64,000 bases of DNA, from the NCBI GenBank assembly GCA_018665815.1, contig JABJBP010000009.1, positions 1-64,000 on the forward strand. Reading direction: 5' to 3'. Made by a program: the position numbers and the translations under genes. The notes below the pieces were generated by a model, which saw nothing but the letters and a program-made list of their open reading frames with translations, did not search any database and had not been told where the DNA came from. How positions within the stretch are numbered: the first letter of the stretch is position 1; every line of letters starts with the position of its first letter. Source of the DNA: Rhodospirillaceae bacterium (GTDB lineage: Bacteria > Pseudomonadota > Alphaproteobacteria > Rhodospirillales > Casp-alpha2). Shown here piece after piece: positions 57,742 to 60,770 of the stretch.

Positions 57742-58491
57742 GTGACCGCCTGGCGACTGGATGAGGCCGAATGCGCTGAACTGGTTGAGCTGTTGGTGGG
57801 CTTGGTCGCCAGCCCCAGTCCCGACCCGCCCGGCAATGAGGCCGCCGTCGCCGGATTTCTGATCGGTTGGCTGGAAGAACGTGGCTTTGACGTCACCCGC
57901 GATGAGTTTGCGCCGGACCGGATCAATGTCCTGGCGCGGCTAAAAGGCGACGGCTCAAAACCCGCCCTGATTTTCTCGGCCCATATGGACACCCTGCCAA
58001 TCGGCGACGGCGATTGGGGTCATCCTGCGTTCGGCGCCGAGATCGAAGACGGCAAACTTTACGGGCGCGGCGCCACGGACATGAAATCCGGCCTGGCCGC
58101 CATGGCGGCGGCGGCGCTGAAACTGCGCCGCGCCGATGTCGCCCTCGCCGGCGACCTGATCCTCGCGTTCTCGGCGGGCGAAAGCTCAAACCTTTTGGGG
58201 GCCGAACGCATGGTTGAAGCCGGCAACTTGAAAGGCGCCGGGGCGCTTTTAGTCAGCGAGCCGACGTCCTTGGGCCTAGTGACCGCCGAGGCTGGTGCCT
58301 TGTGGCTACGGGTAGTTGCCTCCGGTCGCCCAGGCCACGCGTCGGCGGGCACCGCCGATAACGCAATCCTCAAACTGATGGATTTCCTGGCCGACGTTCG
58401 CACCAACCCGTTCGCCGACAAACCAATCCGTTACTCGGCACAGCCACCCTGGCCATCAACACCATTTCAGGCGGCACGGCGGTCAATCTGA
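57742..58491 (+). CDS. M20 metallopeptidase / deacylase, N-terminal part (frameshifted)
   Basis: The 249-residue frame starts at GTG and holds the catalytic N-terminus of an ArgE/DapE-type M20 enzyme: FSAHMDTLPIGDGDWGHPAF, GRGATDMKSGLAAM and FSAGESSNLLGAE. After NPFAD it goes out of frame: the last residues (KPIRYSAQPPWPSTPF...) are noise. One extra A in the AAA run at 58420-58422 would continue as FADKTNPLLGTATLAINTI. Substrate unknown; acetylornithine or N-acyl amino acids are the usual ones. Confidence 0.7.
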   Translation: MTAWRLDEAECAELVELLVGLVASPSPDPPGNEAAVAGFLIGWLEERGFDVTRDEFAPDRINVLARLKGDGSKPALIFSAHMDTLPIGDGDWGHPAFGAEIEDGKLYGRGATDMKSGLAAMAAAALKLRRADVALAGDLILAFSAGESSNLLGAERMVEAGNLKGAGALLVSEPTSLGLVTAEAGALWLRVVASGRPGHASAGTADNAILKLMDFLADVRTNPFADKPIRYSAQPPWPSTPFQAARRSI

Positions 58492-58556
58492 CCGCCGACC
58501 GCGCCGAAGCCACACTGGATATCCGAACCATACCCGGCCTGACGACTGCCGATGTC

Positions 58557-58889
58557 TTGGCCCGGCTTCGCGCCATCGCCGGCGAGGCGATCGTTATCGA
58601 CGTCATGGACGAAAAACCACCGGTGGTCACCGATCCCACCGATCCCTTTGCCGAGACCTGTCTGGATGCCGTCCAAGCTGTCCGAGGCGTGCGCCCGAAA
58701 CCCGGTGGTGTCAGTTATTTTTCCGATTCCGCCGCCTTCGTACCGGCCCTCAATATACCCCGGGTCATCATCGGCCCCGGCCAAATCGGCACAAGCGGCC
58801 AGCGCGATGAGTGGGTGGCGTTGGATGATTTGGCGACCGCCGCCGAAATTTTTGCGGAAATTGCGGTGCGTATGCTTGGCGCTGATTGA
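58557..58889 (+). CDS. M20 metallopeptidase / deacylase, C-terminal fragment
   Basis: This frame continues the gene above. The conserved stretch begins upstream of the called start, around 58434, with LLGTATLAINTISGGTAVN, LDIRTIPGLTTADVLARLRA, and ends with SYFSDSAAFVPALNIPRVI and a QIGTSGQRDEWV motif. That last Glu-x-Val region carries a metal ligand in the family. Joined with the upstream frame it would give about 382 residues, a typical length. Confidence 0.6.
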   Translation: MARLRAIAGEAIVIDVMDEKPPVVTDPTDPFAETCLDAVQAVRGVRPKPGGVSYFSDSAAFVPALNIPRVIIGPGQIGTSGQRDEWVALDDLATAAEIFAEIAVRMLGAD

Positions 58890-59052
58890 ACGAGCCGATC
58901 ACGCGATTATTGTGTCGGTCCTCACAGAAAGTGAGAAATTTATCATCGACCGTGAGAATCGCCCGGACTTGATCGCAATCCGGACCACTATTTCGGATTA
59001 TAATCTCGGCAATTTTTGAGCCATCGTGGACTTCAGCCATCGTTTGCGAAGC

Positions 59053-59274
59053 TTAGGGATTGGATTGGGCAGTTTTGACTACAGCAAAGTATAAACAAGC
59101 GCCCATAACCAACCACGCCAACATAGCTGGCAATTCGCCCCAGGCTTGGTAAGCGTAATAACCTAGTCCTCCGAACGATACGCCAAATAATATCAGCCGT
59201 GTCCGATTTCCCATCATCCACGCGACGGCGAGGGCAATCAAAATTCCCGCGATTATGGCTACTGGGCTAATCAT
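59053..59274 (-). CDS. small membrane protein
   Basis: The 73-residue protein has two or three hydrophobic segments (VAIIAGILIALAVAWMM, LILFGVSFGGLGYYAY, MLAWLVMGACLYFAVV) separated by short polar loops. I recognise no family. It lies alone, convergent with the broken M20 gene. The reading frame and composition look coding, but the call rests only on that. Confidence 0.45.
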   Translation of the reverse strand: MISPVAIIAGILIALAVAWMMGNRTRLILFGVSFGGLGYYAYQAWGELPAMLAWLVMGACLYFAVVKTAQSNP

Positions 59275-59423
59275 GGCGATATTCTACGTCAAATTTTGAT
59301 TAAAGTTCTCACATTTAAACAAACGATTACAACTTACGTGTCCGGAAATGGCTATTCCCGGAATCTAACTTACAGCCCAAATTGTGACCGCTATCAGGCG
59401 TGAACCGGACATCACCCCCCACC

Positions 59424-59458
59424 GTCATGCCCGGGCTTGACCCGGGTATCCACGTCTT
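59424..59458 (+). repeat. left 35-bp inverted repeat flanking the GIY-YIG gene
   Basis: The sequence GTCATGCCCGGGCTTGACCC and its continuation to 59458 is repeated as an exact reverse complement at 59782-59816. The repeat contains an internal self-pairing CCCGGG-CTTGA-CCCGGG. The sequence can be read as the dispersed alphaproteobacterial MPGLDPGIHV element. The GIY-YIG stop codon overlaps its last bases. Confidence 0.9.
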
Positions 59459-59744
59459 ATGTCAGCCGGTCACTGAGATCGTCCCAGTTTGGGTTCGTTC
59501 TGTGGATCAGTTTCACTTTCCAGGTGCGCGACCAATGTTTGATGTTTTTCTCGCGCTGGATGGCCGATTGAATGTCGTCATGGGCTTCAGCAAAGACCAA
59601 CCGTTTCAATCCATGTTTCCGAGTAAAACCGTCGGTCACGCCTTCTTGATGCTCCCGTACCCGTCGCGCGAGGTTATTTGTTACGCCGACGTAAAGCGTC
59701 CCATCCGGACGGTTCGTCATAATGTATACCCAAGCGCCTGACAT
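59457..59744 (-). CDS. GIY-YIG domain endonuclease
   Basis: Starting at ATG 59744 gives 95 residues: a single GIY-YIG domain with WVYIMTNRPDGTLYVGVTNN (GIY and YIG-like positions), the catalytic Arg in LARRVREHQ and the Glu in IQREKNIKHW. This is the UvrC-type nuclease fold used in small nucleases and homing enzymes. A GGGGG site precedes the start. The gene is bracketed by exact 35-bp inverted repeats and its stop codon overlaps one repeat. That suggests it belongs to a self-contained repeat-associated unit. It has no partner gene. Confidence 0.85.
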   Translation of the reverse strand: MSGAWVYIMTNRPDGTLYVGVTNNLARRVREHQEGVTDGFTRKHGLKRLVFAEAHDDIQSAIQREKNIKHWSRTWKVKLIHRTNPNWDDLSDRLT

Positions 59745-59781
59745 ACCCCCATAGTAGATTAACGCGTTCTCGCTCGCCACA

Positions 59782-59816
59782 AAGACGTGGATACCCGGGT
59801 CAAGCCCGGGCATGAC
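59782..59816 (-). repeat. right 35-bp inverted repeat flanking the GIY-YIG gene
   Basis: Exact reverse complement of 59424-59458. Flanking bases also pair nearly (CCCCAC on the left against a similar GTGGGG on the right), so the full arms are about 40 bases. The unit from repeat to repeat is 393 bp and holds only the GIY-YIG gene. Confidence 0.9.
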
Positions 59817-59880
59817 GAGTGGGGTTGAGCAATCCAGTATTGGCTGATCTCTGCTGAAAACCCACAATTCGTCGGCTGAT

Positions 59881-60687
59881 CTAGCCGATCACGCCGTAGG
59901 AAATCGCCAGTAGCACGCCGCCCAGCAGCACCCGGTAAATGCCGAAAATCGTAAACGTCGCGCGGCGTAACCAGGCCATCATCAGCGCGATGGCGACAAG
60001 TGCGGTGGCCATGGCAAGGCCGGCGGCGACAAAGGCATCGGACGTGAGTTGCGCGTTGCCCGATTGCCAAAGCTCATAGCCCTTGAGCACACCGGCGCCG
60101 GCAATCGCCGGAATACCCAGCAACATGGCAAAGCGCGCCGCGTCCTGGCGTTCCATGCCCATCATCCGGCCCGCCGTCATGCAAATCCCGGATCGGCTGG
60201 TACCTGGAATGAGCGCCAGCGCTTGGACGATCCCGATGATCAAGGCATCGCCGATGCGTAAATGTTCGATACGCCGGAGCGTCATGCCGATTTGGTCGGC
60301 GATCATCAACAAAATTCCAAAGCCCAGCGTCGTCCAGCCGATGACCGTCAGTCCACGAAAACCACCAGGCATGTAATGATTGAGGGCAAAGCCCGCCGCG
60401 ATCACCGGGATGGTGCCGATCACCAACAGGCCCGCCAATCGCGCACCCGGGTCACTTCGGCCGCGCATCATGTGACCGAGCCCCGTACACATGTTGAAAA
60501 CATCGCGCCATAGATAGAGCAGCACCGCGCCCAGCGTGCCGACATGCACGGCCACATCCATTAATTGCCCCTGATCGGGCATATCCATGAACAGCGGCAC
60601 CAACACCAAATGCCCCGACGAACTGATCGGCAGGAATTCAGTAACGCCCTGGACAACCGCCAGAACCGCTAGATGTAGGATATCCAA
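59881..60687 (-). CDS. uppP: undecaprenyl-diphosphatase (UppP/BacA)
   Basis: This inner-membrane phosphatase recycles undecaprenyl diphosphate for peptidoglycan and other surface polymers. The family motifs are VTEFLPISSSGHL and LIPGTSRSGICMTAGRM. I place the start at a TTG (60687) that has an AGGGGAG site eight bases upstream, giving 268 residues as in other UppPs. The frame extends upstream to 60762, but without conserved sequence. Eight or so membrane segments are present. Confidence 0.94.
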   Translation of the reverse strand: MDILHLAVLAVVQGVTEFLPISSSGHLVLVPLFMDMPDQGQLMDVAVHVGTLGAVLLYLWRDVFNMCTGLGHMMRGRSDPGARLAGLLVIGTIPVIAAGFALNHYMPGGFRGLTVIGWTTLGFGILLMIADQIGMTLRRIEHLRIGDALIIGIVQALALIPGTSRSGICMTAGRMMGMERQDAARFAMLLGIPAIAGAGVLKGYELWQSGNAQLTSDAFVAAGLAMATALVAIALMMAWLRRATFTIFGIYRVLLGGVLLAISYGVIG

Positions 60688-60770
60688 TTTATCGACTCCC
60701 CTATATCTTGCGATCTTTATAACAATGGTTGGAGGCAATCCCAAGTCACAAGTCGATGACATGAGCGAAT

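Follow-up and report, generated by a model that had tools for sequence, protein, structure and literature searches.

The window analyzed here, a stretch of 64,000 nucleotides from a contig of a Rhodospirillaceae bacterium, contains a compact unit of 395 bp (59423..59817) in which a single gene is enclosed by two inverted copies of a short palindromic repeat (REP), a layout that recurs at many related loci. The gene, located on the minus strand (59457..59744; start codon assigned by homology), comprises 95 codons and a stop and encodes a GIY-YIG nuclease (PF01541, 3.1e-16). The two repeats share an exact 35-mer, GTCATGCCCGGGCTTGACCCGGGTATCCACGTCTT, at 59424-59458 (+) and, inverted, at 59816-59782 (-), with imperfect similarity extending to approximately 46 bp, and no further site within 11 substitutions of it occurs anywhere else in the 64-kb window. 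The chance of a perfect 35-bp inverted repeat in 64 kb is about 2e-12 (arithmetic, equal base use), and with 35 exact bases a chance repeat was rejected. The TAA stop codon (59459-59457) overlaps the left REP by 2 bases, and the inner end of the right REP lies 37 bp upstream of the start codon. Both structural claims of an earlier reading made from the letters of this DNA (hereafter the sequence-only reading), namely exact 35-bp inverted repeats around one 95-codon GIY-YIG gene and the overlap of its stop codon with one repeat, were thus confirmed.

The left REP (59423..59458, +), identified from its sequence and core match, consists of a CGTC tag (59423-59426), a stem ATGCCCGGG (59427-59435), a CTTGA loop (59436-59440), the complementary stem CCCGGGTAT (59441-59449), and a CCA tail (59450-59452) followed by CGTCTT, and its hairpin folds with -16.5 kcal/mol (RNA parameters). 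The right REP (59782..59817, -), an inverted copy recognized by the exact 35-mer, has its tag at 59817-59814 (-), so that both hairpins carry CGTC on the outside and CCA on the inside. Judged against the written description in the part of Di Nocera 2013 (PMC3733652) consulted, to which all statements on that paper refer, these repeats belong to the CGTC REP superfamily, defined by a CGTC tag, a stem of 8-9 bp starting with AT, a loop of 4-5 bases, and a CCA tail; the window repeats have the tag, a 9-bp stem starting with AT, a 5-base loop, and the tail, and inverted doublets are likewise common to both. The same paper describes CGTC-tagged REPs as mostly alphaproteobacterial and, in the part consulted, reports no dedicated transposase for them, whereas a candidate partner is proposed here.

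The unit is preceded by an M20 peptidase gene (57742-58889, +), split over two frames (ORFs 57742-58491 and 58557-58889) by what appears to be a frameshift or assembly error, and by a 73-codon ORF (59053-59274, -), hydrophobic by eye; it is followed by uppP/bacA (59881..60762, -; PF02673). A known RNA family was rejected, the single sub-threshold Rfam match lying away from the unit.

In the 95-residue window protein, GIY-YIG is the sole Pfam domain. Its predicted structure (pLDDT 92.7) is nearest in fold to the UPF0213 protein 1zg2 (E=5.3e-5, TM 0.58), followed by the Slx1 chains of the branched-DNA nuclease Slx1-Slx4 (E 0.013-0.08). Y7, Y18, G20, and E65 do not vary across 28 related rows, and R28 is almost invariant. 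A small stand-alone GIY-YIG fold with the motif Tyr, Arg, and Glu residues, which we take to be catalytic, fits the Slx1-like bacterial GIY-YIG proteins. UPF0213 proteins, such as Escherichia coli YhbQ, share size, fold, and motif with the window protein; however, the E. coli yhbQ locus, a stand-alone relative, has no flanking inverted repeat (score 16 in the test described below). Features of HUH or catalytic tyrosine transposases (IS200/IS605-like) were not found, the only Pfam domain being GIY-YIG and the fold being nearest to UPF0213 and Slx1. GIY-YIG homing endonucleases belong to the same nuclease superfamily and, in the sources consulted in part, are likewise tied to mobile DNA, but they reside in an intron or intein, whereas the window gene is intergenic, ends in hairpins, and encodes 95 residues without NUMOD or any second Pfam domain, with no Rfam intron at 58800-60400; a homing endonuclease was therefore rejected. 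A phage origin was rejected as well, as only 11 of 50,697 phage records match, all below 38% identity.

Related genes were gathered by protein similarity alone; therefore, the sample was not picked for repeats. In a motif-blind test, in which the 200 bp upstream of each gene were locally aligned to the reverse complement of the 200 bp downstream (cut-off score of 30), a flanking inverted repeat was found in 144 of 207 related rows, compared with 7 of 851 other ORFs of the same loci and 724 of 4120 swapped partners. Dropping three duplicate rows gave 143/204, and collapsing shared sites left 111 of 163 distinct sites with the repeat. When rows are binned by their identity to the window protein, inverted repeats accompany 5/5 rows at 70% or above, 49/59 at 60-70%, 28/38 at 55-60%, 28/48 at 50-55%, 20/34 at 45-50%, and 14/23 below. 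The possibility, raised in the sequence-only reading as a refutation, that homologous loci keep the gene without the repeats is not borne out: most, though not all, are bracketed, the test detecting no inverted repeat in 63 of the 207 rows, including 10 at 60% identity or above to the window protein. At one related locus (L060 3001-3279), an in-frame stop lies within the GIY-YIG reading frame, which is possibly a decaying copy.

Many of the flanking repeats are hairpins of the window's kind. Among the best 80 of 430 genome matches, window-type inverted REPs lie within 50 bp on both sides in 54 and within 150 bp in 60. With a generic detector applied to 104 loci, CGTC hairpins reach a density of 4.47 per kb up to 200 bp from the gene vs 0.10 per kb beyond 500 bp, and an inward-facing pair is present in 60 loci. 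The nearest upstream hairpin has its tag outward in 95 cases and opposite in 20, the nearest downstream one in 91 and 28, respectively; where hairpins are present on both sides, 74 of 97 loci have inward-facing pairs, at median distances of 18 and 15 bp. The REPs are also enriched at the gene when counted across 43 genomes, as 20 of 331 type-A and 14 of 378 type-B cores (types defined below) lie within 400 bp of a GIY-YIG gene, compared with an expectation of approximately 0.06%, and the other objection considered in the sequence-only reading, a repeat not enriched beside such genes, does not apply.

The hairpins fall into several types: type A (..CCGGGCTTGACCCGG.., the window's own) in 105 of the 207 rows, type B (..CCCGCGAAAGCGGG..) in 29, type C (CCTCATCCTGAG..TCGAAGGATG) in 8, and types D, E, and F in 3, 2, and 4 rows, respectively, whereas 56 rows fit no type. 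In 32 genomes with at least two genes each, the two flanks of a gene matched each other in 49 of 84 genes, compared with 29 of 218 cross-gene pairs (permutation p<=0.0005). REP classes are clustered on the GIY protein tree (47 changes vs a shuffled mean of 85.1), in a test that asks solely whether classes cluster, on a weakly resolved tree and with near-copies favoring clustering; classes D and F are not clustered. The pairing extends to the REPs dispersed in the genome. After removal of cores within 400 bp of GIY-YIG genes in the 43 class genomes, the 17 genomes with A flanks contain a median of 5 A cores elsewhere vs 0.5 (p=0.0015), with B cores not raised (p=0.97), and the 9 genomes with B flanks contain 19 B cores vs 0 (p=0.0003), with A cores not raised (p=0.48). 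Across the nine genomes searched, the AT-rich hairpin of one locus (L039) has exactly two copies, which both lie at its own gene, and one more copy with 2 mismatches in G046; therefore, a dispersed REP family does not accompany every unit. Residue positions 14, 72, and 78 are associated with loop base T or A, which we do not count as evidence because the tree is poorly resolved (8 changes). Genome G170 has 11 GIY-YIG matches, and several of these are flanked by a distinct hairpin type of their own.

The gene and the dispersed repeats also co-occur. Among 142 class genomes, at least three type-A or type-B cores are present in 26 of 43 genomes that match the gene strongly (E<=1e-20) and in 10 of 99 without such a match (p=1e-9), 13 genomes with weak matches alone being counted among the latter. 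Genome size accounts for part of this co-occurrence: when only genomes of 2.5 Mb or more are considered, the type-A association weakens (14/30 with the gene vs 4/41 without, p=5e-4). Several class genomes are rich in REPs without the gene, namely G140 (94 A cores), G128 (19 A), G152 (35 B), and G092 (15 B). In G140, possibly a genome that lost the enzyme, there is no GIY-YIG match, and among the listed type-A cores many form doublets approximately 58 bp apart. Within the genus of the window, 5 and 25 cores are found in the two genomes that have the gene and 0, 1, and 0 in the three that lack it, two of these three being only 81% and 75% complete; in the window's family, cores without the gene are found in G028 (10), G030 (4), G027 (3), and G033 (3). 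The window's own genome (3.89 Mb, 157 contigs) contains a single GIY-YIG gene by similarity to the window protein and 4 exact 17-mer cores in total (5 by a looser 15-mer), 2 of them at the gene by either count. The third repeat copy forms part of an imperfect REP doublet (C1:6516-6607), and since doublet and unit share ends and orientation, the doublet looks like a non-autonomous form of the unit.

Comparison of orthologous sites revealed loci with and without the unit. With uppP as the anchor, the interval between the M20 peptidase gene and uppP is approximately 1.0 kb in the window and 38-77 bp in the congeners G036, G038, and G039, which lack the stretch ~58865..59872 (blastn/MAFFT against L122-L124). 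The missing stretch also holds the small ORF 59053-59274, so arrival in one step is not required. The region near uppP is arranged differently in G037, and G000 matches the neighbor gene of the unit of G038 only distantly. A unit located between sufB and sufC in Azospirillum lipoferum 4B, with REP doublets on both sides, is missing from all three compared relatives. In genome G132, two unit copies whose proteins are 99% identical reside at different sites, with a shared homology that stops in the flanking REPs. These copies score 22 and 20 in the motif-blind test, below the cut-off; therefore, the test misses some real units. Among the marks of mobility put forward in the sequence-only reading, repeat copies away from the gene (2 of the 4 exact cores in its own genome), sites without the unit (three congeners and three Azospirillum relatives), and two copies of a unit at different sites of one genome (G132) were all found, whereas no target-site duplication was seen at the window, Azospirillum, Sphingobium, or G132 sites, where the comparisons were divergent only.

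Among known systems, the closest is that of RAYT (TnpA-REP) transposases and their REPs. According to the parts of Nunvar 2010 and Corneloup 2021 consulted, the RAYT gene is bracketed by two inverted GTAG REPs in a REPtron, REPs are also dispersed as doublets, the presence of the gene correlates with the abundance of the cognate REP, and gene and REP co-evolve. The GIY-YIG unit resembles the REPtron in its short gene, its two inverted REPs, its doublets elsewhere, and a correlation of gene presence with cognate REP abundance, the latter with exceptions such as G140, G128, G152, and G092. It differs in the enzyme, a GIY-YIG/Slx1-like nuclease instead of an HUH tyrosine transposase, and in the tag, CGTC (59423-59426 and 59817-59814 in the window) instead of GTAG, and so does not belong to the RAYT systems, while the likeness in the way of working is supported. 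RAYTs are moreover reported in the parts consulted to be 'always' bracketed, compared with 144 of 207 rows here, far above the control yet not always. The sequence-only reading had proposed a minimal mobile unit analogous to these systems; architecture, pairing specificity, co-occurrence, sites without the unit, and the G132 duplication agree with this proposal, and no target-site duplication was seen in the divergent comparisons. Among the best-ranked matches in the PMC papers searched, we found no paper tying GIY-YIG genes to flanking REPs and none treating YhbQ together with GIY-YIG; in the parts consulted, PMC9465073 mentions RAYT and a GIY-YIG gene separately from each other, and no GIY-YIG/REP link was found in PMC12306157, PMC1564403, or PMC5082802.

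We consider it likely that the unit is a REPtron-like module composed of a minimal Slx1-like GIY-YIG nuclease bracketed by its inverted cognate CGTC-type REPs. Many relatives sit between matching hairpins, and therefore this common class of repeats probably has in the nuclease its missing partner, which would spread or maintain it. In the most likely mechanism, the nuclease would recognize REPs of its own type once these have extruded into a hairpin or cruciform, for instance on the lagging strand, and would nick at the base of the hairpin; the resulting break could then be processed by host repair or strand exchange, which might copy or relocate REP doublets and occasionally the whole unit.

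The strongest alternative, although in our view unlikely, is that the protein is a host Slx1-like repair enzyme whose role at replication is to resolve the hairpins or cruciforms formed by REPs. The copies beside its own gene would then be autoregulatory or a preferred substrate, and dispersal would be due to something else. The Slx1-like fold is consistent with such a role, as are signs of long vertical retention. In Bradyrhizobium sp. BTAi1 (L101 2921-3342), a unit lies between dnaN and recF, close to dnaA (names by reading), and 20 of the 207 rows, L101 among them, share a dnaN-like end just upstream, the largest site cluster comprising 21 rows. In the four usable gene pairs, three of which come from the dnaN-like site, dN/dS is 0.04-0.09, so the unit is long-lived and conserved there. 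In the parts consulted, TnpA-REP genes are likewise described as close to housekeeping genes in nature (Corneloup 2021), although rayt genes are reported to evolve faster than their neighbors (Nunvar 2010), in contrast to the low dN/dS of these four pairs, which is a different measure. Near-identical copies are also rare, with 1 of 91 within-genome paralogue pairs (that of G132), unlike active insertion sequences, which have several near-identical copies per genome. Against a pure repair role stand the hairpin orientation and the left-right pairs specific to each paralogue, the duplication of the unit in G132, and the scarcity of REPs in sister genomes without the gene, a dependence that repair does not predict.

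Less likely still, another transposase or generic recombination may move REP-ended DNA and carry the GIY-YIG gene along. Mobilization by a broad spectrum of transposases was raised by Di Nocera 2013 (PMC3733652, in the part consulted), and the unseen target-site duplication and the REP-rich genomes without the gene are compatible with it. One of the G132 copies is embedded in a REP array, while multiple REPs flank the other on either side; REP-REP recombination could therefore explain this duplication. A Sphingobium locus points in the same direction: where strain TomMM7A has a unit between fnrL and a response-regulator gene, TomTYG74 (L142) and TomTYG64 (L143) have a single symmetric hybrid REP that bears the tag sequence at each of its ends; slippage deletion would account for this as well as excision would. 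A third relative has unrelated sequence there, and a plain empty site was consequently rejected in favor of an ambiguous one. However, a carried passenger would not account for one gene family being repeatedly picked out, with just 7 of 851 other ORFs bracketed, or for the REP type tracking the GIY type. It is very improbable that the repeats are simply regulatory, as terminator or mRNA-stability hairpins placed without regard to enzyme activity: the right REP does sit in the 5' leader of the window gene, and REPs are found predominantly downstream of coding regions (Di Nocera 2013, PMC3733652, part consulted), but neither two-sided bracketing with a preferred inverted orientation nor a correlation with genome-wide copies of the same type is expected of such elements.

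The layout is not confined to Alphaproteobacteria. Of 14 further records (13 from 36 plasmid-collection matches and one additional Shinella record), 12 score at least 30, and those of Photobacterium (L135) and Rhizobium tumorigenes (L136) fall below the cut-off. Bracketed alphaproteobacterial records include Novosphingobium aromaticivorans pNL2, Sinorhizobium meliloti, A. lipoferum, Rhizobium, and Shinella; outside this class, one record each was found for Neisseria gonorrhoeae, Aeromonas caviae, Planktothrix agardhii, and Spirosoma oryzicola. Little weight attaches to the N. gonorrhoeae record, since repeats of its kind are abundant across that genome. With less assurance than for the module itself, we lean towards the wider view that Slx1-like GIY-YIG nucleases are the missing enzymes of CGTC REPs and of other hairpin repeats (types B-E), forming a family of minimal mobile units, distinct from HUH transposases, that would have seeded a large share of the short palindromic repeats in bacterial genomes across more than one phylum. 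The paper defining CGTC REPs, which are widespread among Alphaproteobacteria, leaves their mobilizing enzyme open in the part consulted (PMC3733652); a 95-residue nuclease between two repeats, with repeat type following nuclease type, makes this question directly testable. If the proposal is true, unrelated nuclease superfamilies gave rise to REP-plus-nuclease units on at least two occasions, and a function can be assigned to a poorly characterized branch of GIY-YIG proteins. In P. agardhii, the bracketed gene on plasmid p1 (L130) lies between an MmeI-type restriction-modification gene and the DISARM gene drmA.
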